Source: a virus
Strand: one strand, 5' to 3'
Virus record (IMG/VR): IMGVR_UViG_3300036785_000656
Location: 1-22,205 of that record
DNA: 22,205 nt
Made by a program: the position numbers and the translations under genes. The notes under the pieces are model-generated. The model searched no databases. It was not told the DNA's origin and worked only from the letters and a program-made list of their open reading frames with translations. Shown in pieces: positions 1 through 21,882 of the stretch; the stretch's first letter is position 1; each line of letters begins with the position of its first letter.

Positions 1-892
1 GCGCCGTACCGTGGAAGGTCGATGTTACTGTAATAGTGGCTGGAGAAACGCCGATTCCTTGAAACGGACTTGAAGCAGGATAACCAAAAATACTGAAAAC
101 ATTCTGAGCAGCATTTTGCGTCACGACATTGCTAATCGTACCAGCTGGCGTATAGGGCGGCAGATTAGGGGTGCCAAGGGCGACATTGCAATTTGGTGTC
201 GCGGCACTGCCGGCCAGAGAACCGAGTGTGATGGAATTACCCTTGCTGAAGACGGCGTTGGCCCAGAAGCCGGCATCGGCACCGCCCATGCCGCCCAACA
301 TCCCGAGCAGGCGCGCCCGACCATCCGGCAGCGCAAGGGTCTTGTTGGCCGCCCAGTCCGCTGCTGCCGAGGCGCCGCGACCACCTGGTGCCACGACTAG
401 TGTCGGGTCCACTCCCCAGAGAAAATTGAACAGGGATTGCGCACTGGCATCTGCCAGCTCAGTACCACCAGACGATGCGCTGCCAATCGTCCTGCCGTTC
501 AGCCGGACAAACCCGGCCAAAATCGCGGTGTCATACCTGATCTTGATATCGCCGGTTGACATCACCGTGGTCGGATCAACCGAACCACCGCCGCCGCCGC
601 CCCCGGCTGACGGGCCGATCACCAGCAGATTGTCGGCGACGAATTTGACAACACCATCGGCGTCCTGCAGCCGCACCTTGATCTGTCCATCCGCCAGGAA
701 GAATTGCGGAATCCGCCCGGCCTGATCCAGCGTGATCGGATTGGGCCACGGAATCGAGAGCGCCGTGTCCTGATAGGCATTCTGCGGCGTGGAGATGGTG
801 CCAGCCTGAATGAAAAACAATTTCCCACCAGAAAGCGGTTCACCGAATTCATCCAGTTGCTGCGTGAGAGCGAGATTGATGATGCCGGACAT
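1..892 (-). CDS. Phage tail-collar fibre protein, truncated by window edge
   Basis: An open frame runs from ATG (890-892) off the left edge, giving 297 codons with no stop. Residues 1-93 form a head/tail-binding-like module with GGKLFFIQAGT and NPITLDQAGRIPQFF, a pattern common at the start of podovirus tail proteins. A run of seven glycines (97-103) follows. Residues about 113-200 match the tail-collar pattern, with GDIKIRYDTA, GFVRLNGRTIG, a PGGRGASAAADWAANKT block and LPDGRARLLGMLGGMG; NLPPYTPAGT comes later. The protein is probably a receptor-binding fibre or collar component on the virion. The start overlaps the upstream stop as TAATG, suggesting translational coupling with the large ejection gene. 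The missing C-terminus would hold the receptor-binding tip. The family call is by remembered motifs. Confidence 0.85.
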   Translation of the reverse strand, partial: MSGIINLALTQQLDEFGEPLSGGKLFFIQAGTISTPQNAYQDTALSIPWPNPITLDQAGRIPQFFLADGQIKVRLQDADGVVKFVADNLLVIGPSAGGGGGGGSVDPTTVMSTGDIKIRYDTAILAGFVRLNGRTIGSASSGGTELADASAQSLFNFLWGVDPTLVVAPGGRGASAAADWAANKTLALPDGRARLLGMLGGMGGADAGFWANAVFSKGNSITLGSLAGSAATPNCNVALGTPNLPPYTPAGTISNVVTQNAAQNVFSIFGYPASSPFQGIGVSPATITVTSTFHGTA

Positions 893-3615
893 TATTTCTG
901 CTCGTTCAATGATCGAGTGGTTGCCTGCAGCATGTTGAGTGTCCTCACATCAGGCGTCGCCTGATAAGCTTTGGCAAGACGATTCCAGCGTCCAACCTGT
1001 GCAGCTCCTTGTGGCGTTGCCAGAAGTCCTGCAACACGTCGTAGACCAAGACCAGCCACCATCATGCCTGCAAGCGGAGTAACGCCGGCAAAATGTCCGA
1101 CAAGCAGGGCACCAACACCCTTGGTGGCGCCCTCTGCAAGTCTGTGCCAAGCCGTCACTTGCGCCGTTCCAGACGGATTACCGTATTTCTCGACCGCATC
1201 CTTGTATTGTTTGGCAATGGTATAAAAATCCTGCAGATTCTGCCGATGTCCGCGATCCCGAAGCAAAATTGCCTTTGCCTGATCGGAATATCTGTCCCAA
1301 TTGGTGACAAACTTGGCTAGGCTAAAATTCTCGCCACCTCCGCCCAATTGCCGCAGCCATGCACCACGAAATTCATCGCGGTTGGCATCTGTCATTTTTC
1401 CCCAGGTGCGAGCTGCTGTTTTGATATCGCCATCTTTATGAAAAGCATGATCGAGCGTGCCAAGGACATCTTCATCGCTGCGATTTCGGCCAACTACTCT
1501 CTTGGCAATCTGTTCGGCCTTGCCAGGCTCGACTTTTGCCAACTGCGGTGTCGAGGCTCTTGCCTCTATAGCCGCTGCCCGCAATGCTTCCGGTGTTTGC
1601 TGCCGAATATCGGCATAATTCCTCAACAATCCATGATCGTTGGGTTCGAACAGGGTCTGGCCCATTCTCGTATTGCGCAATTCATCCATATTGCTGGCAA
1701 TTGCGCGTGGCGTTTTCCCTTCCGTCAAGGCATTGAAATATGCACCCCGCATATTCGCCCGTACGGCAGCAGGATTTTCGACGGCATTCATGATTGCATC
1801 GTGCAACGGAGCAGATCCCGGCCGCGTACCAGGCTTGCCAGAACCCACAAGATTCTGCGCAATGGCTTCCGGCCCAATATCGCCTGTTGCCATCAGATTT
1901 AGGGTCTTGGCCGCGGTCCTGTCTTCCCCGCGTAGTCTTGAGGTGTTGTAGCCAAACCGTTCACGAAAATCCCGATGGCTGTCGATGGCCTTCTGAATGA
2001 CCGCGCGAGCATTGGGGTTGCTGCCAGGAGCAAGATGATTTTCAAGCGTGTTATCGAGAAAATCACCGAACAGGCTCTTGATGGCATTCGAGGCGCGGCG
2101 ATCAGTGTTGGATGTTGCATCAAAGGCCATTTCGCCGACACGCTTGCGCAATTCATCCAGCCCCTGCACCGGAACAGTTGTCGCATTAGGGTCTGGAGCG
2201 TGCCTCCCCATCAAGCGAAACTGCGGATCCTTTCCGGGTGTCATCGCCGCTGCAGAACCTGGAACAAGTTCCTCCAGAACCTGCGGCGGTATCTGCCCCT
2301 TGCCATAAGTATTTTCGAGAGCGGCCATCAGGCGCGGCGGAATGCCAACTGGTGCTCCAGCAGCTGCTTCGCCGGATAATCGCCGCATATCCTGCATCAT
2401 GCTCCAGGCATTCGGAGTTTTGACCGGATCCAGCGTCACGCCTTCTGTGTTCAATCCTTTCTCGATATTGCTATGCAGATCATTAAAAGCCGTTTTTTCT
2501 GTATGAGCATCGAGATTGTTCACCGCCTGCCAGTTGATCTGATTTTCTCCTTCCAGCCGATTATGCCGCTCCTGCACAGCATTGATGGCATTCTCGGCCA
2601 TCTGATTTGGCTCTACATTGCCAAATCGCTGTTCTGCCGCAGTGGCAACCTGGCTTTCCCGAGCATTGATTGCCTGTTCACGTGCCTGATTCTGCTGTTC
2701 CCATTGCCGCAACGCTGCAGCATGTTCAGCCTGGGCCTGTGCTTCCGCAGCAGCGCGTTCCCGTGTCCCTGCTTGACTCAAGGTTTGTTCAATGCCGCCG
2801 CCAACGATGTTCGGCGCCATTGCCGGCGAGAATTTTCCAGCTATATCTTCAATATGACCGCCAATCTGGGCGGGAACTGCCTGGCCGGCTTGCAAAAGCG
2901 GCGTTCCAACCATTGGCGCCCTAGCCAGCGCGACACCACCAGCCTGCACAGCAGGACTTTGCGCCGTAACTGCACGCGGAAGATCAACAGGCATACTCTG
3001 TTGCTGTAACCGTTCAAGAGCCGTCCCGACCTCGGCGGGAGGCCGTCCAAATGGAGAAATTTTTCCGATGGTTCTCGCAGCCACACCAGCCGGTTCCGTA
3101 ATGGCAGAGAGAGGATTTGTGACACGAGCCGCAATTTCAGCCGTTCGTGCTGCAGCCGGCAAACGCGCCAACGCCGATTCTCCACCAGTAAAAATCATCG
3201 ACATATCGCCGAGAACCGCGCCGGGATCCTGAGCAAGATGTTGCTTGAATCCCTCAAGCGAACCGTAATTCTCTTTGTAATAATCTCTGAATGCTTTTGA
3301 TGTCTTTTGAGATTCGACGGGTGGAAGGGGAGCAATTCCCATTTTCTCCCGATATTTATCCTCAAGATCCAGGCTCAGGCCCTTTACGAGATGATAAACA
3401 TCGGTCGCCGTTTCGATTGGATGTGCAATCTGATGAAAGACACCACCGATCTGTTCACCGACACTCGGGATTAGTCGGGATGCGGCACCACTAATAGCTC
3501 CGCCAGCAGTCAATGGCGGCTTGTAATCAGTCGCATAAGGGTCGAAAATTTTGGTCGATGACTGTGATGATTCTGGCGGGGTATAATCCGGAGCAAACGG
3601 ATCAAAGACTGGCAT
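892..3615 (-). CDS. Large DNA-ejection (internal virion) protein, P22 gp16-like role
   Basis: A 907-residue protein, the last and largest of the ejection-protein set. The frame also opens at TTG 3642, but the ATG at 3613-3615 lies 2 nt after the preceding stop and is the likelier start. The N-terminus holds a tandem motif, VFDPFAPDYTPP (3-14) and IFDPYATDYKPP (23-34). Alanine-rich amphipathic stretches follow, then an Ala/Gln/Glu-rich likely coiled coil at about 290-345. Near the C-terminus lies a hydrophobic segment with GVGALLVGHFAGVTPLAGM. There is no enzymatic motif that I recognise. Size, composition and position after two other ejection-type genes suggest it is packaged in the head and injected to help form the DNA conduit across the cell envelope. 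Homology to P22 gp16 is inferred from context, not from a clear motif. Confidence 0.8.
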   Translation of the reverse strand: MPVFDPFAPDYTPPESSQSSTKIFDPYATDYKPPLTAGGAISGAASRLIPSVGEQIGGVFHQIAHPIETATDVYHLVKGLSLDLEDKYREKMGIAPLPPVESQKTSKAFRDYYKENYGSLEGFKQHLAQDPGAVLGDMSMIFTGGESALARLPAAARTAEIAARVTNPLSAITEPAGVAARTIGKISPFGRPPAEVGTALERLQQQSMPVDLPRAVTAQSPAVQAGGVALARAPMVGTPLLQAGQAVPAQIGGHIEDIAGKFSPAMAPNIVGGGIEQTLSQAGTRERAAAEAQAQAEHAAALRQWEQQNQAREQAINARESQVATAAEQRFGNVEPNQMAENAINAVQERHNRLEGENQINWQAVNNLDAHTEKTAFNDLHSNIEKGLNTEGVTLDPVKTPNAWSMMQDMRRLSGEAAAGAPVGIPPRLMAALENTYGKGQIPPQVLEELVPGSAAAMTPGKDPQFRLMGRHAPDPNATTVPVQGLDELRKRVGEMAFDATSNTDRRASNAIKSLFGDFLDNTLENHLAPGSNPNARAVIQKAIDSHRDFRERFGYNTSRLRGEDRTAAKTLNLMATGDIGPEAIAQNLVGSGKPGTRPGSAPLHDAIMNAVENPAAVRANMRGAYFNALTEGKTPRAIASNMDELRNTRMGQTLFEPNDHGLLRNYADIRQQTPEALRAAAIEARASTPQLAKVEPGKAEQIAKRVVGRNRSDEDVLGTLDHAFHKDGDIKTAARTWGKMTDANRDEFRGAWLRQLGGGGENFSLAKFVTNWDRYSDQAKAILLRDRGHRQNLQDFYTIAKQYKDAVEKYGNPSGTAQVTAWHRLAEGATKGVGALLVGHFAGVTPLAGMMVAGLGLRRVAGLLATPQGAAQVGRWNRLAKAYQATPDVRTLNMLQATTRSLNEQK

Positions 3616-3617
3616 CT

Positions 3618-4703
3618 TCAGCCGCCATAATTCTTTTTCCAATGCGCCGCCAATTCACTGTCCGGAACATTTGCGTTGCGCGGATCGGCACGAGCCCTTT
3701 CCATGAATTCCTTCAGCGTAGGTTTTGCGAGAGCTGTCCCGCCAGCCGGCGCTGCGGGCGCCGCAGTTGTTGTACCGCCAGGAGCGGCCGTAGAGCCTGC
3801 GGGCGCAGGCAATGTGCCGCCGCCAGGCTTGAAATACGTCCTTTGCCTGATTCCTTTCGACTCTGCCTCAGCCTGGTCCTGCATCAACTGAATGCGCTTC
3901 TCAAGATTTTCCAGATTGACCCTGCGTTCCGCAGCATTCATGCTAGGAGATGTCTCAATGTCCTGCAAAAGCTTCAAATCCTGATTGGTAATTCTGTTGC
4001 CGAACGCGGCCTTGGCATTGCCTGCAATATTTGACTTGGCAAGATTGGCGTATTCCTGAGCATCGATAACTCCTTGGGGAGTTATGCCTTCCGGAAGCGC
4101 CTTTGCCACATCCGGAGCCAAGCCACCGGCATATCCGGACCATGCCGTCTTGTTCAGTTCCTTCATTCGCGCAATGCTATCCAGCGTTGTTCTTGCAGCG
4201 AGATAGCGCTTGTCGGCATCTTCCGCGAAACCCTGCTCCTTTGCCGTCAATTCCGGTCTCTGCAACGCAACTTTTTGCCCGGTCTGAATGTAGGCTTGCC
4301 ATGACGGATCTTGTGCTGCTTCTGGAGGAAGTTTGCCTGCCGCAATCGCTGTATCCAGTTGTTTTTGTCTGTATTCCGGAGTGTCTGCCTCGGCTGCTTC
4401 CTTCTCCAGCTTCAGCTTGCCTTCCCTCACTTGCTGCGCGAGATTGAATTGCCGGACATCTTCGGCACGAGTAGCTAGATCGCTCTGCATCTTAACGCCT
4501 GCCTGCACCAGTTCCGGAACACCGGACTTGATCAGAAATTGAGTATTAGCCACCGGATCAGGACCCAGTTGCGCCAGTGTCTGTCGAGTCGCATCCTGCA
4601 TTTGTCCCTGCCGGTAGACATTGCCGAGATTGGCCAGTGGCGAGAAATCCACGCCTCCAGAGAAGGCCGCGGGCATCGGGAACGAGGTCGGATTGATGGC
4701 CAT
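3618..4703 (-). CDS. DNA-ejection protein, P22 gp20-like position
   Basis: A 361-residue protein starting 2 nt after the preceding stop. The N-terminus (FSGGVDFSPLANLGNVYRQGQ) closely resembles that of the upstream lysozyme-like protein. A charged helical region at about 75-125 (DLATRAEDVRQFNLAQQVRE) is a likely coiled coil. A second helical region contains SIARMKELNKTAWSGYAGGLAP and NLENLEKRIQLMQDQAEAES. A Pro/Ala/Thr/Gly-rich linker near residues 295-325 leads to a short C-terminal helix ending AAHWKKNYGG. No catalytic motif is visible. Its place between the lysozyme-like and large ejection genes argues for an injected internal virion protein. It could alternatively be a tail-needle or scaffolding accessory. 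Confidence 0.75.
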   Translation of the reverse strand: MAINPTSFPMPAAFSGGVDFSPLANLGNVYRQGQMQDATRQTLAQLGPDPVANTQFLIKSGVPELVQAGVKMQSDLATRAEDVRQFNLAQQVREGKLKLEKEAAEADTPEYRQKQLDTAIAAGKLPPEAAQDPSWQAYIQTGQKVALQRPELTAKEQGFAEDADKRYLAARTTLDSIARMKELNKTAWSGYAGGLAPDVAKALPEGITPQGVIDAQEYANLAKSNIAGNAKAAFGNRITNQDLKLLQDIETSPSMNAAERRVNLENLEKRIQLMQDQAEAESKGIRQRTYFKPGGGTLPAPAGSTAAPGGTTTAAPAAPAGGTALAKPTLKEFMERARADPRNANVPDSELAAHWKKNYGG

Positions 4704-6206: not shown

Positions 6207-8444
6207 TTATCTTTTCAATGGTTTTCTGGGAGAACTTCTCGCCGATACATCGTTAGGTGTGCCAGCATCATATCGCGCCTTGGCGGGAAGGGTGCTAAGC
6301 GCCCCAGTGGCTGGATTGACCCACGGCCACGGATTGGAGCCGAAGAACGCAGGCGTCGATGTCAGGTACATCGAATTGGGGATGGTGAACCCACCGGGAG
6401 TGTTGTGCCACTTCTGCGAATTGGTCAGAAAATCGTAATTGCCGTCGCGAATGACAGTCGATAGTGCGCCTGATTCCGCCTGCTGGTTCCATTGACCATC
6501 GTCATAACCCACCATCCAGATATTTCCGCTTTTGCTGTTGGCCCATTGTCCACTGACGCCCCCGACACAATTGCTGCCGTTCACATCACAGCCCATCATC
6601 GGATCGGTGTAGAGCCACCCGGACATTTGGCCGGGACGCCCCAGGATATTTCCTATAAAGGTGAATTGCTTCGACCATGAATGCACGCCCGCGGTTCTCG
6701 GATTCGATTCCGACCCGGTCCAACTCCCGCGCCGTCCGGTAACATAATTTCGGAAATAGGTTATGTATTGCGAGCTGCCATGGGTGATGTCGGTGTCCAT
6801 GTTGAAACTGTAATTGCCTTCAAACAGGACGTGATGTGGCCCGGACATGTGGGAGGCGTTAAGACCGATCTCCTGCCATGCTGTATTGTATGAAATCCAG
6901 CCATCATCCATGTAGTTATAGGCGACGACACTGCCGGTCCCCGATGACCTGGAAACAATGACCTTGTTGACGTCGCGCGAGATGTTGTTCTCGATTAAAA
7001 CTTCGGACGAGCCGTCGGCTAGGCTGATCGCATAACCACCGCCGCCTGGTGTCGGCTGAGAGCCAGTATGGATATATGAGTCGCGCAGTTCCGTTCTGAA
7101 ACTGTCCTCTATCGCAATGCCTTCGCCGGTCCATTGCGTCACTTCGATGTTTTTGGCCCAGCAATAAGCCGTGATCTTGAACCGCAAATTGCCCTCACTG
7201 CCGCCCACCATTGTGAGATTTTCAATACCGGCATTAAAGACCGGCAATGCACCGTTGCCGGTCGCCGTATATCGGGTCAACTGGGCTCGATGACTGACGC
7301 GATAGCCGATGGAAAGCGGCGAGGTGAATGTGATCGTGTTGCCGGTAACAGAGGCGATTTCCTTGATCTCACTGATTGCGCGTCCATCGGTATCCGATGA
7401 TGACGATGAGCCGGACGGATAGCCTCGACAGAACCAGCCAAATGCAGCCGGCGGATCATCCCATGACGCCGCAGGAGAATGCATTTGCCACTCGACATGG
7501 TCTCCGACCTTCGTCTGAAGACCAGACGGACTGAAACCCGGTGGTGGAGTCACTAGGGACCAATTGGATATTTCGTCGAGCAGGACAATCTGCCCTGCCG
7601 TGAAGCCAGAAGCATTGGAAACGGTGACCGAAGTCACCCCCGCAGCACCATCCGCAGTTAAGTTTTGAGAAGTGGTGTTATCCGGCTTTCCCCATCTGCC
7701 ATTGCTTACGAGAATGATTGGTTGCTGGTCTGGTGGGCTCTGATTCTGTGGCGCGTAAATCATATTATTGAGTGGACCGCCCGTCGCAATGGTCCCAGCC
7801 ACCACCGTGGTTGTCCGGGACGTTGCACCATTGGTTTTGGTCAAGATGGTCTTGCCAGCGCCAGCGCCGCGAAGCGTGATTCCTTTATTGATTCGCAGCA
7901 AGTTATTAATTGTGAAATTCCCTGCTGCAAGCAACACAACTTGTCCAGCGGGGCAAGCATCAATCGCCGCCTGAATCTGTGCCTGGGTTGATCCTGCCGC
8001 TAATGTGGCGGCGATCTGTGTACGGACAGGAATTCCTCCTTTCGAGGTCAGGCCAGGATTCCAGGGAAAGTTGCGATCCGCAGGAATGATTCCGTCACCT
8101 GGAGGAACTGGGTCCGGAGGCGTTATGCCTCCGGTGTCATCCGGGTCGGTAGCGGTAACCGTCGTCACATCGGTCTGATTCTCATTCACACTTACGGCCG
8201 CCGCGGAGGTGATCTGCGGCGGCAAATTCTCGCTGACATCCTTAACGGTAACGCGCATGTCCTGGGTCGAGCTGGCACCGCCCGCATCGGTTGCCTCGAC
8301 CGTCACCTCATAGATATTGTCCGTGTTGGCGTCGCCTGGGTTTTCAAAATCCGGGGCCGTCCTGAACGTCAGCTTCCCAGTGGTGCTATCAATGTTGAAC
8401 TTATCCGCATCCGCGCCGCCTGCTATTGAGTAGCTGATTGCCAT
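6207..8444 (-). CDS. Tailspike-like beta-helix protein with cadherin-like N-terminus
   Basis: A 745-residue protein with SD AAAGGA 6 nt before its ATG. Residues 1-75 are the later part of a cadherin-like repeat (SYSIAGGADADKFNIDSTTG, DFENPGDANTDNIYEVTVEA). Residues about 76-105 are the first strands of another (PPQITSAAAVSVNENQTDVT). A proline-rich linker follows. The remainder looks like a right-handed parallel beta-helix: QAQIQAAIDACPAGQVVLLA and GITLRGAGAGKT near 155-195, then asparagine-rich rungs such as EVLIENNISRDVNKVIV and HHVLFEGNYSFNMDTDITHG, ending near NPWPWVNPATG. The fold suits a host-surface polysaccharide binder or depolymerase. I see no catalytic triad that I can name. It overlaps the preceding small gene by 22 nt. 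It could be a host-derived surface beta-helix protein recruited as a spike. Confidence 0.8.
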   Translation of the reverse strand: MAISYSIAGGADADKFNIDSTTGKLTFRTAPDFENPGDANTDNIYEVTVEATDAGGASSTQDMRVTVKDVSENLPPQITSAAAVSVNENQTDVTTVTATDPDDTGGITPPDPVPPGDGIIPADRNFPWNPGLTSKGGIPVRTQIAATLAAGSTQAQIQAAIDACPAGQVVLLAAGNFTINNLLRINKGITLRGAGAGKTILTKTNGATSRTTTVVAGTIATGGPLNNMIYAPQNQSPPDQQPIILVSNGRWGKPDNTTSQNLTADGAAGVTSVTVSNASGFTAGQIVLLDEISNWSLVTPPPGFSPSGLQTKVGDHVEWQMHSPAASWDDPPAAFGWFCRGYPSGSSSSSDTDGRAISEIKEIASVTGNTITFTSPLSIGYRVSHRAQLTRYTATGNGALPVFNAGIENLTMVGGSEGNLRFKITAYCWAKNIEVTQWTGEGIAIEDSFRTELRDSYIHTGSQPTPGGGGYAISLADGSSEVLIENNISRDVNKVIVSRSSGTGSVVAYNYMDDGWISYNTAWQEIGLNASHMSGPHHVLFEGNYSFNMDTDITHGSSQYITYFRNYVTGRRGSWTGSESNPRTAGVHSWSKQFTFIGNILGRPGQMSGWLYTDPMMGCDVNGSNCVGGVSGQWANSKSGNIWMVGYDDGQWNQQAESGALSTVIRDGNYDFLTNSQKWHNTPGGFTIPNSMYLTSTPAFFGSNPWPWVNPATGALSTLPAKARYDAGTPNDVSARSSPRKPLKR

Positions 8445-8605
8445 TGTGCATCCTTTCCATTCGTGGCGCTAACCTCTGCTTGTTTCTGCTCCTGGACCTG
8501 CCGCGCGATCTTCTCGATTAACTGGGCCACCTGGATATAAGGCGCTAGCGCGATCGCATTCAGCGCGCGGCTCCATTCCTCTTCGGTGAGTTCGATTCTG
8601 ATCAT
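8423..8605 (-). CDS. Small helical phage protein, unknown function
   Basis: A 60-residue protein ([20 protein letters not shown] start). Most of it appears to be a single amphipathic helix with alternating charged and hydrophobic residues, and it is rich in Gln and Glu toward the end. Its ATG overlaps the upstream stop as ATGA, and its last 22 nt overlap the tailspike start, so it sits in a coupled set of tail genes. It may be a chaperone or connector for a neighbouring tail protein, but that is a guess from position. Confidence 0.65.
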   Translation of the reverse strand: MIRIELTEEEWSRALNAIALAPYIQVAQLIEKIARQVQEQKQAEVSATNGKDAQWQSATQ

Positions 8606-8871
8606 GGCTGCATCTTGTAGAGGTACGACTTCTGGGTCGGTGAACCGGAATCAAAGGTAAACAGCATCTGCCCGAGCGCTTCCTGTGCATTGGTCACATC
8701 CGCCGCCACAATATCCGATCGAATCTGATTCGGATTCTGCGCGAAGTACCGCGTGATGATCGTTGGGTCTTGGGTGAGTTGATCGTTCTGGGTGCGCAGG
8801 GTCTGTATCAATTGCACGAACTGCACGATGTTCTGCGAATAAAGATTGATAAATGTGGTTGGGTTGCTCAT
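8602..8871 (-). CDS. Small tail-cluster protein, unknown function
   Basis: An 89-residue protein starting [20 protein letters not shown]. The frame is open further upstream to 8955, but the ATG at 8869-8871 forms an ATGA overlap with the fibre stop and is the natural start. It is helical and rich in Gln, Thr and Asn, with a tyrosine/phenylalanine-rich middle ([17 protein letters not shown]) and no recognised motif. The tight coupling to the fibre upstream and to the 60-aa gene downstream suggests a structural or assembly role in the tail. Confidence 0.65.
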
Positions 8872-10409
8872 ACCAGTTGGACCTTCCTCAAGGTGCCCGC
8901 CGCGTTGTAGCAAAGCCAGGTCTGGCCGCCGCTGGTGTCGTTGATCAGACCCCAAGTGCCGGACGGCAAATCGCCTGCGGCGGGAGCGCCCGCTTTCTGA
9001 AAGCCAATAAGCGCGGTCATCCGAGCGATGCCGGTGCCGCCGGCCTGCGTGCCGATGGTCAGGACATTGGCGGTAATATTCCAGTCGAAGACGGCGCGCT
9101 CGTAGTTGGTGGGCGGTGCATTGCCGTCTGTGGTCTTATAAACATGGAGACCTTGTTTGGTCGTACCGTACTGAAAGCTCCAAACCTGCGATGTGGTATA
9201 GGTATAATCTAAATTGGGATAGGCATTCTGATTTCCGTCAGAGAAAGCGATGGTGGCAGATGGCGTTCCAGACGCCGGGTTGAAAGTGCCGATCCATGTA
9301 TTGTAGTTTCCACCTGTAAGGCCGCTACCGGAATTGTACCCAATTAGGGTATTGGTTGTACATGACGCCACCATATTAGAGCCAGCGAAAGCACCAATAA
9401 TAGTATTGCCAGCGGCGGTGCCTATGTTCTGGCCAGCCTTATAGCCAATAAAAGTATCTCCGAAGATTCCTGTCGCAGTTTCCCCGGCTTGATAGCCCAA
9501 GGCAGTGCCATAGTTTCCGCTTACGATATTTGTAAACGCGCGCGCGCCGATGCCAAGAAATGAGGAGCTTGTCAGTAACCGTAGAGCACCGGTGCCAATC
9601 CCGACATTATCGTTTCCGGAAACAAGACCGCTTAGGGCATCTTGGCCAAGAGCGAAATTGGAACTGCCAGTTGTAATATTTTGTGCCGTTTGATTGCCAA
9701 TAGCTGTATTGGCGATTCCAGTTGTGAGAGAGACAAGTGAGCCGTCCCCGGTTCCAAAATTGGCATAGCCAGCAACAGAGGCATTGCCGGCGTTGCCTTC
9801 AAACCAGTTGTTGCCGCCGACGTTAGAGACCGAGAAAATAGCCGGAACGAATACGCCGCCGGCAAGCAAATCTATTTGCGCGCCAGACTTCAGGATTTTA
9901 TTAGTATCATCCCAGAAGAAATTGGCGTTGTCCTGGGCAAGCACACCGCCTGCACCGATGAACAGGACCGAGCCGGGCGTACCGCTGACCACAGCCCCGC
10001 CAATCGACATGCCGCCGCCACCGCCTGCGGGTGTGGCCCATGTCCCATCTCCGCGCCAGAAGGTCGTGCTGGACGCAAGCGTGCCGGAATTGAGATGCGA
10101 AACTGCGAGATTTCCCGTGACATCGTTGACGAGACTGACAGCGGAAAATGTTGGAAGACCCGCCGCATTGCCATGCAGCACTGTCGTTGCCGTCCCAAGC
10201 GAACCCAGCGTCTTGATATCAGCCCCGGCATTGCCCAGCACGATCTGGTTCAGCGCCAGCGGGCCGCCGCTGTTGGTAACGCCACCGCCGCCGCCACCGC
10301 CGCTGTTGATGAATTTTTCAATGAACCTCAGCTTTTCATACCAGACCGGTTCGATCTGTCCGTCCCTGGTTTGAATAGCAACGTTTTGGCCAGGCAGCGC
10401 AATGTTCAC
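8868..10409 (-). CDS. Tail fibre-like protein with YadA-head-like repeats
   Basis: A 513-residue protein with a GTG start (10407-10409) behind GGGAAAAATCT. Residues 1-36 ([31 protein letters not shown]) are a short N-terminal segment, followed by seven glycines (37-43). Residues about 45-130 contain phage-fibre phrases such as [12 protein letters not shown] and [18 protein letters not shown]. Residues about 231-378 are about nine repeats of 16-18 residues with an N-T-x-I-G / A-L-G core ([46 protein letters not shown]), like the YadA-type adhesin head. The C-terminus, [19 protein letters not shown], resembles common phage-protein tails. The likely product is a trimeric receptor-binding fibre. 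It lies between the gp10-like protein and two small tail genes. Confidence 0.75.
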
Positions 10410-10431
10410 AGATTTTTCCCGTGAGAAGATA

Positions 10432-11832
10432 TCATCGAAGTACGTCCGCCAGCATGTCGGCGCCCATGAATGCGAAATTCAGCCCGGCCGATTCATCGAA
10501 GCGCCAGCGCACGCCCTGGATTTCCGCTTGGCCCCAGATCGAGGCCCGCGCCCGCCGTGTGGTGACGGACTGCATCCCAATCGGCACCTGGCGCGGATTG
10601 CTCCAGGACTGGCCGCCGTTGCGCGACATCGAAATCTCGATCATGGCATCGGTCTCGTCGGGATCATGGCCTGACGCAATCGAGGCTCCTTTGGTCATGT
10701 AAAGCTCGATCGAATTGACCCGGATGGCTTTCGGAAATGCTCCCAAGGGCCCGGTCTCGATCCGCATTCGTAAGGGGTCCGAGACTTCCTTGCGGACATT
10801 GCCATCGATCTTCAGCAGGTTGGCGCCCTTCACGTCACCACACAGCCAGTTGCCAAACGCGAGAATCGGCTGATAACCGCGCCAATAGGTTTGCAAGTAG
10901 GATTGCCGTTCGTGCCATGATGTCAGCGTGGTGTCATATTCCCAGCACCAGGCAGGTCCCTGCACCACCACCATGCCGTGGCCGCGAGACACATAGACGC
11001 CAACGAGAATCTTGGTCTTGTCTGGCTCTCGTTCGATCAATTGGTCAAGATCCGGCACCGAGATCGGGGTCGGCGTGTAAGCGGTCAAGGTCGAGACCTT
11101 GTTGTCATCACCGACGAAGAAAATTCCCTTGCCCCAGCCGTCCTCGTTGCCGGCGATCGCACTTGGACCAGGAATGCCGCGCCAAATGGTCGAAATGTAG
11201 GAAAACGGATAGCCCGCCGTATTGACCGGTGGTCCCCACACTTCCATGGTGTTGGCCCCCGCCAATAACAACTGACCATTGCCGAGTGGTATAGGCCGGA
11301 ATAGCGCGTCGGCCTTGGATTGCGCAGTGGCGAAGTTAATCGGATTGATGCTGGTGGTATTGACATCGGAGGCAATCGTGGTGCCGTTGCCGTAGCTGAA
11401 CAGGAAAAATCCGCTCATGAACACGACGGAATTGGGCGTTCCGACATCGGAATCGGGATAGGTGGCAACACCAGTTGGATCGACCACGACAAAGGCGCCG
11501 ATTCCCGGTGAGACCACGGCGATATCCGGTGGCGAGTTCTGGTTGGCGGCAAACCAACAGAATTGCGTGCCACTGATCGATCCCGGTAGCGCTGTTCCCG
11601 CTCCGCCTGCGGAGGTGAATTTATAGACCGTCGATCCATACAAAGCATAGAACGTGCCGGCCACCTGGATGCCACCACGGTAGACGCCACTCGTAGCCGT
11701 GCCAAACACCGAAAGACCCGCCACCCGCCAATAGGCATTGGGCTTGCCGGCACTCTGCGCCAGCGGTTCCGGATAGCAATTGAGCAAGCGGCCGCCCGCC
11801 ACCTGCGGCGCCTGTCCCGGCGTGGTCAGCAT
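10432..11832 (-). CDS. P22 gp10-like tail accessory / packaged-DNA stabilisation protein
   Basis: A 466-residue protein, close to P22 gp10 (about 470). The N-terminus has [20 protein letters not shown], matching the family pattern of a conserved N-x-Y-P-E near the start. Repeated beta-propeller-like strands follow: [59 protein letters not shown] and [18 protein letters not shown]. In P22 this protein forms the tail tube that plugs the portal and holds DNA in. The start is uncertain: ATG 11832 has no SD, although the frame is open upstream. An AGGGGG lies 7 nt before an in-frame ATT (11851-11853), and an ATG at 11845 is out of frame by one. The gp4-like gene lies just upstream. Confidence 0.85.
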
Positions 11833-12965: not shown

Positions 12966-14174
12966 TTAGGTGTGGGCAGGAGCCGCCATGAAGCCTGTAA
13001 CCATGCCCCAGTCTACCAGGTCGCCCGTGGTTGCACCCTGCACGGCGAGCGGGGCCTTTGCAACCTTAGCCATGCCATACTGGCATTCGATGCCTAAGCC
13101 TGTAACGAACTCGTAGTCACCGTCTTCCAAGGTCGTCGGTCGTGGCATCTGGCCCATCGCATAGGCCAGTGCCGCCTGGCCGCACAGGAACACCGGCTCG
13201 ACATCGACGGCGGCGGCTCCCGCACCTTTCAGCAGCAGCCGCGTCGTAATCTCGGGGATGTTCTTGTAGAGGATGCCGTCATAGAGCAGCGCGCCCCCGG
13301 TGAAGATAGGGTTGGTGCCGGTGGCGTTGGCTTCGCGGGCGCGCGCGTCCCGGTTGGCCTGATACATGGTCGGGTCGGCCTGCAGCTGCATGAAGCAGCG
13401 GTCGCCGACGAAGGCCACGTACATTTCCTCGTCGAGTTCCTCGATCTCCCACGGCGTGATTTTTGGCCGTCCGTTGTAGACACCGGGATTGGCCGGGTCC
13501 ATGCCGCTTTCCTTGGCCAACAATTTCATCAGCGAACCGTTGGCCGCGGTCATCAAATCATTGGTGGCATCGACGTTGAGCAATAACGTCGCCAGCACCG
13601 CGCCACCGGCAGCGGTAGCACCGTTGGCGAGGTCCTTGCCGTACAGCGTGCGATCGTAGTTGGCATTGGCCCAGGAGTTTTTCTGGGCCGTGGTGGCCGC
13701 ACTGAACTTCACCCCGTTGATGCGATTGCCCGGTGCAGTGAACCGCCCGGCCTGGATCGATGCTGACGGGATCGACAACAGGGAATCGACGATATCATCG
13801 CGGACGATGCGTCGCGCCCAGCCACGCAGCAGATTTCTCGCGGTGGAGCGCACGTCGAAGGAGGATTCCTTATTCACCGCCCGGTTATTGGCAACGGCAT
13901 TCCTGGCCCAGTCTGCCCAGACCGGAAAGCCGTAGGAGTCCATCATTTCTTCATTGCCGCGCAGCGTGCCGACCCCGACGCCGGGGCCGACCAGTTGGGT
14001 GACCAGAGGGATGTTGATTTCCTTGCCGTTGGCTTCGAGATCAGCCATCCGGACGATGATGGAAGTAGAGGTGTCGCCCATGAAGGGATCGAAACGACTA
14101 CGCCTGAGAAAGTCGGAGATGACCTGCCGTCTGAATTTTATGAGTTCATTGTTGACATGATTACTGGTGAACAT
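12966..14174 (-). CDS. Major capsid protein, N4-gp56 / DUF4043-like
   Basis: A 402-residue protein, starting at the ATG 14172-14174. Residues about 25-120 match the N4-gp56/DUF4043 capsid pattern: RSRFDPFMGDTSTSIIVRMA, EINIPLVTQLVGPGVG, TLRGNEEMMDSYGFPVWADW, RNAVANNRAVNKE, and a FDVRSTARNLLRGWARR helix. Later comes a DEEMYVAFVGDRCFMQLQAD segment and ILYKNIPEITTR. The protein forms the head shell. It follows the scaffold gene by 36 nt and is followed by a terminator. The SD (GAGAGG) lies in a hairpin just upstream. The rest of the virion set is P22-like, so the coat may have been exchanged. Confidence 0.88.
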   Translation of the reverse strand: MFTSNHVNNELIKFRRQVISDFLRRSRFDPFMGDTSTSIIVRMADLEANGKEINIPLVTQLVGPGVGVGTLRGNEEMMDSYGFPVWADWARNAVANNRAVNKESSFDVRSTARNLLRGWARRIVRDDIVDSLLSIPSASIQAGRFTAPGNRINGVKFSAATTAQKNSWANANYDRTLYGKDLANGATAAGGAVLATLLLNVDATNDLMTAANGSLMKLLAKESGMDPANPGVYNGRPKITPWEIEELDEEMYVAFVGDRCFMQLQADPTMYQANRDARAREANATGTNPIFTGGALLYDGILYKNIPEITTRLLLKGAGAAAVDVEPVFLCGQAALAYAMGQMPRPTTLEDGDYEFVTGLGIECQYGMAKVAKAPLAVQGATTGDLVDWGMVTGFMAAPAHT

Positions 14175-15430: not shown

Positions 15431-15636
15431 TCATCATCATCGTCGAAATCATCGATATCAAAGGGAGCACTGAGGCGATTCAGCCGGTTGCGAAGGCGAA
15501 CGTGATGATCATGGTTTTTGCCGCCGTGCCAGGTACTGTACTGGCAGCGCCACCACACAACATGGGCGTCGTGCTGTCCCCTCTTGTGATATCGCTGCCA
15601 TTGCGGCCGAAAAGTCGTCAACAGTTCATTCCGCAT
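15427..15636 (-). CDS. Small protein downstream of portal, unknown function
   Basis: A 69-residue protein starting at ATG 15634-15636, inside the end of the portal gene (11-nt overlap). A longer frame reaches 15744 but would overlap the portal heavily. The sequence is rich in His, Trp and Arg (WQRYHKRGQHDAHVVWWRC, TWHGGKNHDHHVRLRNRLNR) and ends in an acidic tail (DIDDFDDDDE). The downstream gene follows in an ATGA overlap. No family is recognised. Confidence 0.55.
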   Translation of the reverse strand: MRNELLTTFRPQWQRYHKRGQHDAHVVWWRCQYSTWHGGKNHDHHVRLRNRLNRLSAPFDIDDFDDDDE

Positions 15637-17698
15637 TGGGCGGCATCCTGGGCATCGCCCGCTGGGCGTGCTGGTGGCCCGAATCGGTGGCGCGGTCGGC
15701 GGAGCGGTGGAAATGATCCAACACGCGGTCCACCACCTCGCCATGGCGATCGGCGTTTCTCTGCGCGTGCTCGCCCAACAACTGCAACGGAGACAATAGC
15801 GCCTTGTGGTACAGGCTTTGCGCCGAGGCGCGTTTGTGCATGGCGGTGGCGTTGGTTTCGTTGATATCGGCGAGCTGCTGCGCGGTCTGCAGCGGGGTTT
15901 GCGGCGGTGGCGGGGGTGGTGGCGTGCCCTGGGTGCGGGCCTTGGAGACGTTGAGCATGGCGGCGGTCTGGATCTTGCCGACCTCGGCCTGCTTCTTCTG
16001 GATGTCGGCGGCCTTGTCCTGCATCAGGAGTTGGCTGGCCTGCTGCTTCATCGGATCAGGCTGAGAGATCATCTGCTGCAGCTTCTTTTTCTCCGACAAT
16101 GGCAAGGTCGAGGCTTCGATGATCGCGGCGGGTGGAACCGGGACGTTATTCTGACTCAGCGCCATCAACAGGTCGAAGATATCGCCCATCACGGTCTCGT
16201 TGTCGGGGCCTTCGTCGATCTTGATCTCGACATCGATATTGCCGAGCATATTGACCAACACCGGCAGGCCGAATTCGTTCAGCTGCACGCCGTTGATCTG
16301 CAGGAACTGGGCAATCTGCTGATCACCGGAAACCCGCAGCATCCGGTCGGCAGTCCAGAACTTCTGCGCCGCCAGCCAGGCGGCGCGATAGCGCTCCAGT
16401 TTCCACATCCGGAAATTCTTCAGGAACGGCCCCAACTCCGCCAGTCCCGCCTGCTGCAAAAAGTTCGCCGCCCGTCCACTGACGTTCTGGCCGAATTTCT
16501 CGATCAATTGCTGGTTGGGGCCGAAACCGTCGATCTCCTGCTTGGCGTCCTGATAATAGGAGGTCTGCTGGATGAATTCCTGATCCGGCTGGATCACATC
16601 GAGATCTTTCTGGTCGCCGCGATAGACCAGGACGCCATCGGGACGTGCGGCCTCGCGCCGGGTCACCTCGACATCATCGACCGCGCCCTCCTTCAGCCGG
16701 ATCTGGCGCGTGTTCATGATGTGGATGGCCTTACTTCGGTGCTGGTTGATGGCGTCCTGCGGCCCCCTCAAGCGCCGGATCAAGCCGTAATGGTCGCCAT
16801 GGATGTCGATATAGGCAGAAAAGCCGTGGAATTTGGAAATCGACTGCCCGCGTTCATTGACGAACGGGGATTCGCCGCTCATCAATTCCACGATTCCGGT
16901 GTGCAGGCACCATTTCCAGATGTTGCCTTCCTTGTACCAGTGATCGACCAGTCTCACCCGGTGATAGATATCGATCCACATCGGCTCGCGGTCCGAGTCG
17001 AACGAGGTCCAGTAGCCGCCGTCATTGTTGATCGACTGCCGGATCATGTCCTGACGATCGGGGAAAGCGTCTTCCAGTTCGTCGGCGTCGGCCCACTTGT
17101 AGACCCCGTGAAACCTCGCGTCGTGAAAATCGTTCTTGGTACTGCGGGGATCATAGAAGAAGGTGCGGGGATCGACATAGGCAAAGGCCAGGTCGGGATC
17201 CTGCTTGTCACCCTTTCGCAACACCAGCTCGGATATCCCGATGCCGTGGATCAGAGCATCGCGACAACACTCCACTTCAAGGTCTTCAGCCATGGAAGCG
17301 TCGCAAATCGTGCGGATAACCTGGGTAGCCACTTCAGCACCCTGCTCTCCATTCGGTGTGTTGGGATAGGCTTTCGGATCGGTCCTCAAACGGCGGATGG
17401 TGCCGGCCAGGGAGTCGATCTTTCTGCCCGTTCGATCGAAGGTGATTTGCGGCTGTTGGCGTTTTTTCAAGATCCGCAATTGCTCCATGGTCCATTGATC
17501 GACGTGGTAGTAGCGCCAACTCATTCTTTGTTCGTCGATTTCCCGGCCCTTGGCGTAGGCGTAGTTCTCGAACGCTCTTCGGCGCTTGACGATCGAGGGA
17601 TAGGGATTGCCATTCTTGTCATAGCCCAAAGGGGAAGTGGTGCCATCGCTGTATTGGCCGAGGTTGCCGTCCTCATTCAATGAAATCACTGACTTCAC
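15626..17698 (-). CDS. Portal protein, P22-type
   Basis: A 690-residue protein (P22 portal is 725) that forms the dodecameric DNA channel at the head vertex and docks TerL. Recognisable features include WRYYHVDQWTMEQLRILKKR, RQQPQITFDRTGRKIDSLAG, GEQGAEVATQVIRTICDA, FAYVDPRTFFYDPRSTKNDF and GLIRRLRGPQDAINQHRSKA, all typical of the P22 portal family, and a Gln/Lys-rich helical C-terminal barrel region. A run of seven prolines lies near residue 590. GTG 17698 is the earliest possible start (an in-frame TAA precedes it); a second GTG at 17689 is better spaced from a GAG SD-like sequence. It follows TerL closely and overlaps the next gene by 11 nt. Confidence 0.92.
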   Translation of the reverse strand: MKSVISLNEDGNLGQYSDGTTSPLGYDKNGNPYPSIVKRRRAFENYAYAKGREIDEQRMSWRYYHVDQWTMEQLRILKKRQQPQITFDRTGRKIDSLAGTIRRLRTDPKAYPNTPNGEQGAEVATQVIRTICDASMAEDLEVECCRDALIHGIGISELVLRKGDKQDPDLAFAYVDPRTFFYDPRSTKNDFHDARFHGVYKWADADELEDAFPDRQDMIRQSINNDGGYWTSFDSDREPMWIDIYHRVRLVDHWYKEGNIWKWCLHTGIVELMSGESPFVNERGQSISKFHGFSAYIDIHGDHYGLIRRLRGPQDAINQHRSKAIHIMNTRQIRLKEGAVDDVEVTRREAARPDGVLVYRGDQKDLDVIQPDQEFIQQTSYYQDAKQEIDGFGPNQQLIEKFGQNVSGRAANFLQQAGLAELGPFLKNFRMWKLERYRAAWLAAQKFWTADRMLRVSGDQQIAQFLQINGVQLNEFGLPVLVNMLGNIDVEIKIDEGPDNETVMGDIFDLLMALSQNNVPVPPAAIIEASTLPLSEKKKLQQMISQPDPMKQQASQLLMQDKAADIQKKQAEVGKIQTAAMLNVSKARTQGTPPPPPPPQTPLQTAQQLADINETNATAMHKRASAQSLYHKALLSPLQLLGEHAQRNADRHGEVVDRVLDHFHRSADRATDSGHQHAQRAMPRMPPNAE

Positions 17699-17716: not shown

Positions 17717-19159
17717 CTACAGGACCATGTGATCGATGGTCTTGATCCTGCGCGGCTGGTAGCCGTCATCCGGTAGGGTGGGAGTTGGCTTCTGTTTCAG
17801 CTTGCCCACCACCATCTTGTCGAGCAGTTGCCCGCAAAGGCCCAAGGCATCGACCTGGTCGTCATATTTACTGGACGGGAATTTGAGCAATTCAGCCAGA
17901 AAATCGCTGACCCAGTTGGCGTTCTTCGGATAGTACAGACCATCCAGGGCCATTCTTCCCTGGATCGATCTGGCCCTGACTGCCTTGTCGCCGCGGGTAG
18001 AGAACTGCTCGCGGTTCACATAGGCCCGGCGCTGCTGCATTCTTTTTTCGAGGAACGGCCCGACCCCCGACCTGATCTGGCCGGTTTCTTCCGCCCAATA
18101 GAGCGGACGGTATTTTGTGACAAGATCGCAGAAGGCATCCACCCATTTCTCGGATGAAGTCTGCCCTCGCCACACCTCAAGCAGATAGAGATTGTTAAGA
18201 TGGTCGATCCCGACGACCGCATGTACGGTATAATCTCCACCAGCGGCGGTAACTGCATAGTCTGAACCGCCGTACACACGCAGAGTGGAAGAATGAGGGA
18301 TGATGTCACGCGGTTTCAGCCATTCTTCCTTGAAGAAATCACCCTCATCGGGGGCCGGGGCCTGCTGGTAGAGCGCGGACCAAACTCTTGGCGGAGTAGT
18401 GTCGCGAAGGCCAAGCAGTTGAGCACCATAGCCGTAGTCATCGTCGCACCACAGAGGCTCATCCAGGCTTCGGCCCAGAGCGTCATCGGGCTTTGCCAAT
18501 GCTGGCAAGGATATGACATCCCACGGCTCATGATTAAGCACCCTTCCCGCCAAATCATCCTCATGCCAGCGGGTCTGGATCAGAACCTGACGAGCACCAG
18601 GTACAAGACGAGGACGAAAATCATTGAGATACCAATCCCACAGACGATCGCGAACCAGAAGAGAATCGGCGTCCTGCCTGGACCGAATAGGGTCATCGAT
18701 CAATCCATAGGACGCCCGGAAACCGGCGATGCCGACATTGGCGCCGGCGGCATAATATTCGCCGCCTTGTTCGAGCGACCAGCGGTTGACCGCCTGGTTG
18801 TCGTCGGAGAGTTTAATGCCCAACGTCAAGCCGTTGTCGGCGATGATATTCCTGACCCGTCGGCCCCAGCGTTCCGCCAGTTCCGTGGTATGCGACGCCG
18901 CCAATATCAGGGCCTTGTTATCCTGGCATAGCAGCCAGGGCGGAAACAGCACCGAGGTATAGGTGCTCTTCGCGGACCCTGGGGGAAGGAACAGCGCCAG
19001 TCTTAAAATGTCGCCGCGTGCAACCGCTTCCAGCTTTTCGATAATGAGACGGTGGTGCCTGGCCGGTTGATAGCCATTATAGATGCACCACCGCTTTAGC
19101 GAGTTGCGGACCTGCTTGCGCTCGAGGAATTCCTGGGCGCAAGTCTCGCGGTCGAGCAT
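17717..19159 (-). CDS. terL: Terminase large subunit
   Basis: A 480-residue packaging motor with ATPase and nuclease halves. Walker A is LPPGSAKST (58-66); a Walker B-like IDDP is at 154-157; the coupling segment LIQTRWHEDDLAGR is at 193-206. Nuclease-like acidic residues are Asp300 (GGSDYAV), Glu357/358 (WAEETG) and Asp433/Asp437 (YDDQVDALG). In complex with TerS and the portal it translocates and cuts DNA, probably by a headful mechanism given the P22-type context (inferred). The start ATG at 19159 has a weak SD. It lies 2.2 kb downstream of TerS, separated by several small genes. Confidence 0.95.
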   Translation of the reverse strand: MLDRETCAQEFLERKQVRNSLKRWCIYNGYQPARHHRLIIEKLEAVARGDILRLALFLPPGSAKSTYTSVLFPPWLLCQDNKALILAASHTTELAERWGRRVRNIIADNGLTLGIKLSDDNQAVNRWSLEQGGEYYAAGANVGIAGFRASYGLIDDPIRSRQDADSLLVRDRLWDWYLNDFRPRLVPGARQVLIQTRWHEDDLAGRVLNHEPWDVISLPALAKPDDALGRSLDEPLWCDDDYGYGAQLLGLRDTTPPRVWSALYQQAPAPDEGDFFKEEWLKPRDIIPHSSTLRVYGGSDYAVTAAGGDYTVHAVVGIDHLNNLYLLEVWRGQTSSEKWVDAFCDLVTKYRPLYWAEETGQIRSGVGPFLEKRMQQRRAYVNREQFSTRGDKAVRARSIQGRMALDGLYYPKNANWVSDFLAELLKFPSSKYDDQVDALGLCGQLLDKMVVGKLKQKPTPTLPDDGYQPRRIKTIDHMVL

Positions 19160-19184: not shown

Positions 19185-19571
19185 TTATGTACTGGGCGTC
19201 GGATGCGGTCCTGTCGGAACACCCACCACGACCCAGCCATCAGTCGGAGTCCAGATCGCTTTCCACTCCACCGGCGGCTGGACCGGATCAGGGGGCTTGT
19301 CCGGAGGCACGATCGGTCCTCCACCAATAACTGGAGGATACCCCGGCTTGTCCGGGAAGCCAGAACCCGGCCCTCCCCAAATCGGGAATGCTGGATGCGG
19401 CGGTCCTCCCGGTCCCCAATTCGGTGGTTGGCCACCGGAACCCGGAGGCATCGGCCCTCCACCGACCTGCAGACCGGTGATGGACGCTTCACCAAATAGA
19501 ACAACATTCTGCTGGGTTCGATTGTACTTGTCGTATAAGACGCCGGAAATGGTGATTTCAACCGCGGCCAT
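19185..19571 (-). CDS. Pro/Gly-rich conserved phage protein, unknown function
   Basis: A 128-residue protein with an excellent SD (AGGAGG, 5 nt before ATG). The N-terminal 40 residues look like a beta-sandwich strand set (VEITISGVLYDKYNRTQQNV, ASITGLQVGGGPMPPG). The middle is a long run of PPG/GPP-like repeats, and the C-terminus is WKAIWTPTDGWVVVGVPTGP, a tryptophan-containing tail seen in similar phage proteins. It may be a structural linker; I cannot assign a function. It overlaps the preceding zinc-ribbon gene by 14 nt and lies 25 nt before TerL. Confidence 0.75.
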   Translation of the reverse strand: MAAVEITISGVLYDKYNRTQQNVVLFGEASITGLQVGGGPMPPGSGGQPPNWGPGGPPHPAFPIWGGPGSGFPDKPGYPPVIGGGPIVPPDKPPDPVQPPVEWKAIWTPTDGWVVVGVPTGPHPTPST

Positions 19572-21405: not shown

Positions 21406-21882
21406 TCACTTCTCGCCTAACCTGGTCGCCGAGCCGTCGATAATCCCCACATCCGAAGGTGAATTCCCGGCTGCGATCGCCTCTAGTTGCTGATCTGTGA
21501 GCGTTCGGGCACTGATCGCATGGGTGTGTTCGGTGTGACGAACATCGCGCCATTCGTCCGGACTCGCATTCTTCAAAGCGAAGATTGACGCAGTAGTCTC
21601 GGCGCCCTTCCGGGAAGCTAACAGCTTGATTTCTAAGGCTGCAATGCGTGCAGAGCGCGCGCGGGAAACAGCGTCACCAAACTCGCTGTACGCTCTAGTC
21701 CACTCATAAACCGCATTCCGGCAGACCCGGATTGATCCTGCGAAAGCTGAGAGACTGTATCCCTTTGCCATGTACTCGATCACTAACGCGCAGTATTCCG
21801 GTCGATACTCGGACGGTCGTCCCGTGGTGTAGTTCGGTTCTCTGAGATGCGCTGGGACCGTAGTCTGCTTAAAGGGTGCCAT
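21406..21882 (-). CDS. terS: Terminase small subunit-like protein
   Basis: A 158-residue protein. It opens with a GRPSEYRPEYCALVIEYMAK pattern, then a helix-turn-helix (GYSLSAFAGSIRVCRNAVYE WT), then helical YSEFGDAVSRARSARIAALE and a SIFALKNASPDEWRDVRHTE block, matching the common phage TerS family in which an HTH binds the packaging site and the helices form the ring. The C-terminus is acidic and flexible. It would recognise phage DNA and activate TerL. The ATG at 21882 overlaps the preceding gene by 14 nt, and the stop is followed at once by the leftward promoter, so TerS and TerL can be transcribed separately. Confidence 0.82.
   Translation of the reverse strand: MAPFKQTTVPAHLREPNYTTGRPSEYRPEYCALVIEYMAKGYSLSAFAGSIRVCRNAVYEWTRAYSEFGDAVSRARSARIAALEIKLLASRKGAETTASIFALKNASPDEWRDVRHTEHTHAISARTLTDQQLEAIAAGNSPSDVGIIDGSATRLGEK

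Follow-up and report, generated by a model that had tools for sequence, protein, structure and literature searches.

Two swapped half cadherin repeats form a conserved, mobile N-terminal module of phage spikes that may act by complementation between polypeptides

The N-terminus of a spike encoded in the window, i.e. the whole 22,205-base stretch of DNA analysed here (IMG/VR virus record IMGVR_UViG_3300036785_000656), reads as a conserved and mobile phage module in which two half cadherin repeats are swapped and which would work by intermolecular complementation, a reading to which we assign a probability of about 0.45. The module (~103 aa) consists of a first half with strands C to G (“CG”, residues 1–72) and a second half with strands A and B (“AB”, residues 74–103). 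The AB strands of one polypeptide would supply what the CG half of another lacks, yielding one complete cadherin-type beta-sandwich from two chains, and depolymerase-bearing proteins would thereby be attached to a base protein or chained together. Each chain in the window phage would present an acceptor CG, then a donor AB, and then a beta-helix enzyme, and its partner may be a second spike molecule or some base protein encoded beyond this fragment.

The window derives from a podovirus-like phage with genes read leftwards (Table 1), whose portal reaches at best ~32% identity to those of isolate phages, with Pseudanabaena phage Pan3 coming closest. The start of the tail protein truncated by the contig end resembles an ordinary podophage tail N-terminus, which suggests that a conventional tail appendage may accompany the spike. 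The portal gene is overlapped on the opposite strand by a 625-aa open frame (15806–17683, +), probably a composition effect. Small proline-rich proteins from the window (19185–19571, −) and from L010 (6078–6638, +), two otherwise unrelated phages, have a C-terminal peptide in common (WTPTDGWVVVGVPTGPHPTPS and WTEETGWVLVGVPTGPHPTPS, respectively).

Table 1. Location of the features discussed in the window and in related contigs.
Feature	Contig	Position	Strand	Basis or remark
Spike gene, permuted cadherin module + beta-helix	Window	6207..8444	−	Open frame, 745 aa
Ribosome-binding site AAAGGA, 6 nt ahead of ATG	Window	8451..8456	−	Sequence
CG half, proposed acceptor, residues 1–72	Window	8229..8444	−	Pfam profile positions 31–91; AF2 strands; kept in 7 contigs
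Inter-repeat hinge DVSENLPPQ, residues 69–77	Window	8214..8240	−	
AB half, proposed donor, residues 74–103, EN and DPDD motifs	Window	8136..8225	−	AB profile E 1.3e-16; alignment
Pro/Gly-rich linker TGGITPPDPVPPGDGII, residues 104–120	Window	8085..8135	−	Sequence
Pectate-lyase-like / beta-helix domain, residues 121–745	Window	6210..8084	−	Pfam matches
Tail protein truncated by contig end	Window	2–892	−	phrog_8763; begins LTQQLDEFGEPLSGGKLFF
Fibre-like protein with repeats	Window	8868–10409	−	Partial match to phrog_4636 tail spike
Head closure Hc3	Window	10432–11832	leftwards	
Major head protein	Window	12966–14174	leftwards	
P22-like portal	Window	15626–17698	leftwards	Pfam P22_portal E 2e-92
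Terminase large subunit	Window	17717–19159	leftwards	
Terminase small subunit	Window	21406–21882	leftwards	
CG-AB at gene start	L006 = 3300045120_000061			
CG-AB at gene start	L007 = 3300037119_000202			
CG-AB at gene start	L010 = 3300036832_000428			
CG-AB at gene start	L012 = 3300037070_004393 + 3300037071_003105			Near-identical pair
CG-AB at gene start	L013 = 3300037071_003489			
CG-AB at gene start	L079 = 3300009678_000021			
CG-AB-AB protein, 136 aa	L079	9995–10405		
CG-beta-helix protein without AB, 381 aa	L079	10407–11552		Start MAITFSITGG
GH16-like enzyme, AB without CG at N-terminus VNPPEITSPGTADTPENTTEVLTVTAVDKN	L013	7166–8131		Gene after spike

The spike protein begins with MAISYSIAGGADADKF, its module continuing to DVSENLPPQITSAAAVSVNENQTDVTTVTATDPDD, and GGAAAGGA lies directly upstream of the ATG. 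Residues 3–68 match the Pfam Cadherin family (PF00028) over profile positions 31–91 of 93, with an E-value of 1.2e-10 and a score of 42 bits, above the curated cut-off of 28.8. The repeat does not run from A to G: the profile is entered at position 31, and strands A and B come after G. This bears out the original prediction of a spike that starts in the middle of a cadherin repeat in permuted order, at coordinates (8110–8444) that are correct, with the module proper covering 8136–8444. The two parts are also complementary, as had been proposed, the matching AB strands of bacterial arrays leading directly into the next ...TYSI. In a phmmer comparison against the PDB, residues 3–103 align with protocadherins across an EC repeat boundary (in 5dzx, for instance, query 3–103 on chain 249–346), which identifies residues 75–103 as the A and B opening strands of the next repeat. 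Putative calcium-site motifs are present once each (E88-N89, D100-P-D102, D32-F-E34, D53 and D69..E72), and the window spike has a single CG and a single AB, without the serial repeats of a bacterial array. An upstream in-frame start completing the repeat was sought and none was found: the frame stays open for merely 7–8 more codons (RHEWKGCT), and a longer N-terminus is therefore out. The missing strands are not encoded elsewhere in the window either, an AB profile search of all six frames across its full length having returned no second AB-like stretch. The spike matches no PHROG, and none of its Pfam matches places a known phage head-binding family, such as those of the P22 or T4gp10 type, at the N-terminus. 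The linker that follows is low-complexity in the relatives too, but of other composition. Residues 121–745 are probably a depolymerase, with matches to Pect-lyase_RHGA_epim at residues 154–223 (E 8.2e-6, slightly below its cut-off) and, weakly, to Beta_helix at residues 431–515 (E 0.007); relatives of this C-terminal domain were absent from 50,697 isolate phage records.

A scan of 2.9 million viral contigs yielded seven further contigs with CG-AB at the exact gene start, which brings the IMG/VR total to eight including the window, seven of them distinct, and a pattern search for a CG half beginning at ATG recovered exactly the same seven. Their modules are 65–79% identical to that of the window, and the CG boundaries are identical, with a gene start of MAI and Pfam entry at position 31 in 8/8 phage CG domains (the one from L012 by its near-identity to L013). 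Such a shared boundary across seven distinct contigs argues that the module did not arise by chance. Judging from substitution rates among the phage modules (dN/dS ~0.05–0.3 in both halves, with dS often >1 or saturated), the module is under purifying selection. In a tree, the phage sequences group into a single clade, separate from the bacterial cadherin arrays (support 93/96), recovered in 94% of bootstrap trees from a bootstrap that had not wholly settled, and the module thus apparently has a single origin. The module matches 64 loci in the genomes of bacterial and archaeal species; wherever the frame could be traced upstream at the bacterial loci, AB precedes CG, mostly within long multi-repeat proteins. 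Across 304 testable bacterial CG domains, there was no convincing case of a gene beginning at the CG cut, and three apparent gene starts of this kind, all in L032, proved to be partial profile matches. The module was found in no isolate phage by tblastn with three queries, and one candidate carrier (L003) was rejected as a false match located in another kind of phage protein.

These relatives change how the origin of the spike N-terminus is viewed. It had been proposed to be a fragment captured by this spike from a multi-repeat bacterial surface protein, and the kinship to such proteins stands (up to ~60% identity). Capture by this particular spike does not, given the seven distinct contigs, the single clade, the low dN/dS and the near-saturated dS, and the same observations rule out a one-off capture or a decaying fragment; if capture was the origin, it was old and probably single. 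As for the suggestion that homologous spikes might reveal an ordinary conserved phage domain, the module is indeed a conserved phage one, although it matches none that has been described.

The module is followed by several unrelated C-terminal domains, namely the beta-helix of the window, a second beta-helix type in L010, and a third common to L012, L013, L007 and L079. In L006 (2149–2985), the C-terminal domain behind the module matches nothing in Pfam and may be a new type of enzyme. All-against-all comparison placed the module in three unrelated phage backbones. The first comprises the window, L012 and L013, whose terminase, and portal where present, are ~70% alike; the second comprises L079 and L010, which share a terminase and portal other than those of the window group; and the third is L007, with head-closure and tail-tube genes of another tailed-phage type. 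The same comparison found no neighbour gene common to all carriers that could serve as a docking partner. The original note had the module stand in for a normal head-binding domain; a docking site particular to one lineage is disfavoured by the spread over unrelated backbones. The spikes of L007 and L012 are 74% identical over their length, while no other gene on the 6-kb L007 contig is shared, which suggests that spike and module travel jointly between unrelated virions. The L007 spike gene (2507–3784) sits within the head-closure and tail-tube block, an unusual location for a spike.

In all phage cases, CG lacks preceding A and B strands, leaving a proposed acceptor fold short of strands, and in some phages CG and AB are carried by separate proteins. 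CG-only, AB-only, CG-AB and CG-AB-AB proteins were all found among the carriers, with AB-only and CG-only gene products in two of the relatives, L079 and L013. L079 is a 45-kb phage whose 123-nt terminal repeat indicates that it is probably complete. Its CG-AB-AB gene is separated by one base from the start of the CG-beta-helix gene, and two genes further on in the same cluster, a 674-aa protein ends in an AB (...PPVITSSTAVSIPENTTAVMTVTATDPG*). We propose that this cluster may encode a donor-only base, an adaptor and an acceptor-only enzyme. At 10385–10415, a TAA and the single base separate the first two genes, with a GGGG run before the TAA, and a one-base indel at this run would fuse the second AB to the second CG into a complete canonical repeat; the separation of these genes may thus reflect an indel introduced during assembly, or a frameshift. 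The C-terminal region of the 674-aa protein has one weak relative, in which the match stops short of the AB, and a search of IMG/VR with a single fixed tail length retrieved no C-terminal AB donor beyond that of L079. In L013, the enzyme with an N-terminal AB carries the motif EIDIFE, and its GH16-like class rests on this ExDxxE motif, given a sub-threshold Pfam match (E 0.037) and no match in the PDB. Neither the window fragment nor most relatives showed a donor-only or acceptor-only partner, and there the donor would have to be supplied by a second copy or by a gene beyond the contig. Trimers are common among beta-helix spikes, and as every chain has a single CG and a single AB, each AB might instead complete the CG of the next chain until the ring closes, serving solely as a trimerisation clasp. 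Such a symmetric swap would leave the separate AB and CG gene products of L079 and L013 unaccounted for, and we regard it as improbable.

Two other explanations dispense with pairing. The module could bind carbohydrate or act as a spacer that holds the depolymerase near its polysaccharide, with CG stable alone and AB as the start of a linker. This would suit the enzyme-like or beta-helix C-terminus of most carriers, including the predicted polysaccharide-active, pectate-lyase-like domain of the window, as well as a spread over backbones that is compatible with a function independent of virion type; moreover, cadherin domains of Saccharophagus degradans have been reported as carbohydrate-binding modules (Fraiberg et al. 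2011, as cited in PMC3124978). We nevertheless consider this live rival unlikely, as it accounts neither for the constraint on AB, equal to that on CG, nor for ABs that lack a CG and end one protein or begin an enzyme, nor for the precise boundary common to the carriers. The N-terminal DNA could alternatively be a recombination scar, a joint for swapping catalytic domains of which the AB-only and CG-only genes are left-overs, as the differing C-terminal domains behind a conserved N-terminus and the closely similar spikes of L007 and L012 might suggest. However, synonymous sites are near saturation while the protein is kept, which implies that conservation acts on the protein rather than on a DNA joint, and donor-only ABs retain their I-T-S, E-N and hydrophobic positions (pN/pS 0.3–0.7, a noisy estimate). 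A scar is therefore improbable in our view.

The hinge and the structure models bear on whether AB could instead fold back onto its own CG, an intramolecular circular permutation that would yield a closed domain acting as an N-terminal cap or in docking. Each spike has exactly one CG and one AB, as such a permutation would have it, and an AF2 monomer model built from the seven phage sequences places AB unlike tandem cadherins (rmsd 11–15 Å once the alignment includes AB), albeit without confidence (pLDDT 54–63, and 35 at the hinge). The two ends of a cadherin domain lie far apart, at opposite ends, and a connector spanning the domain would be expected to be longer. The stretch from residue 62 to 84 is instead 23 aa in the module, as against 20–23 aa in 110/200 bacterial matches and at least 24 aa in the rest, which disfavours this permutation. 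A second AF2 monomer model, built from 39 sequences, has a mean pLDDT of 89.7, with CG strands at residues 4–9, 16–18, 25–27, 44–52 and 58–66 (pLDDT 93–98). Residues 81–100 are modelled with similar confidence (pLDDT 94–95) and nearly no sheet or strand hydrogen bonding, as strands without a partner, although tandem bacterial arrays make up most of this alignment and bias AB toward a tandem-like place. With Foldseek, 103–116 columns of this model align to two-domain cadherins, mostly at 6.8–9 Å. AB alone on other proteins, and a second CG without AB in L079, also speak against a self-closed domain, which we hold to be rather unlikely.

The acid-x-acid motif (DPD) before strand C provides a further indication. 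It is present in 7/7 ABs that follow a CG and in 0/3 others, which read AGV, DPG and DKN at this site (p = 0.008, from a sample of 10 related cases), and in 142/151 bacterial ABs. Retention of DPD solely after CG would be expected if the CG-AB joint were a repeat boundary stiffened by calcium, with no repeat preceding a lone AB, and we infer that calcium may be bound at this joint. Taken together, the split gene products, the unlengthened hinge, the DPD pattern, the partnerless AB strands of the larger model and the low dN/dS of both halves favour completion between polypeptides.

Compared with known systems, the module shares with bacterial PF00028 tandem arrays ~40–60% identity, the strand order within each half, the hinge length and calcium-type motifs (EN, DxD, DFE and TD). 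Unlike these arrays, it has both its ends, at the gene start and at the linker, between strands B and C, and comprises one CG and one AB, while no gene starts at this cut in the 64 bacterial loci. Pili assemble by donor-strand complementation and exchange, in which one strand is donated (PMC4810151), and chaperone-usher pilins may resemble the module in pairing an incomplete Ig-like fold with a donor segment able to complete another subunit. There is, however, no sequence relation; the module would donate two strands (A and B), its fold is cadherin-type, no chaperone or usher was seen, and the pairing is here a predicted one. In phage CBA120, tailspikes branch via T4gp10-like N-terminal domains (PMC8825819), N-terminal modules that link several depolymerase spikes, as proposed here, whereas no T4gp10, XD or head-binding domain was detected in our case, and the connector would be a half cadherin repeat. 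Tail proteins of Rhizobium myophages likewise place a cadherin fold in the structural-gene region, but RL2RES_030, the one examined among the cadherin-containing isolate phages found by fold, and phage L008 each have one complete repeat, in which AB precedes CG as is canonical. None of the titles and abstracts returned by searches of open-access literature describes a split or permuted phage cadherin module. The module of the window spike is thus a variant of two known themes, the modular spike N-terminus and the cadherin repeat, and is real and conserved rather than a one-off fragment.

More broadly, we tentatively suggest that phages may assemble receptor-binding or depolymerase complexes from split cadherin halves joined non-covalently between polypeptides, the parts being a base protein with an AB at its end, adaptors that combine CG and AB, and enzymes that carry a single half, CG or AB. 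This coupling is supported by the anatomy of the predicted proteins, and it would be a donor-strand-like construction system without a description for phages among the open-access papers searched. If the halves pair, they would provide a natural plug-and-socket for the exchange of depolymerases between unrelated phages, would account for one spike working on different virions, and would amount to a two-part coupling fold that is small and genetically encoded. Should they not pair, a cadherin repeat severed at one precise strand boundary, apparently of single origin and swapped across phage lineages, still clearly exemplifies domain permutation under selection.
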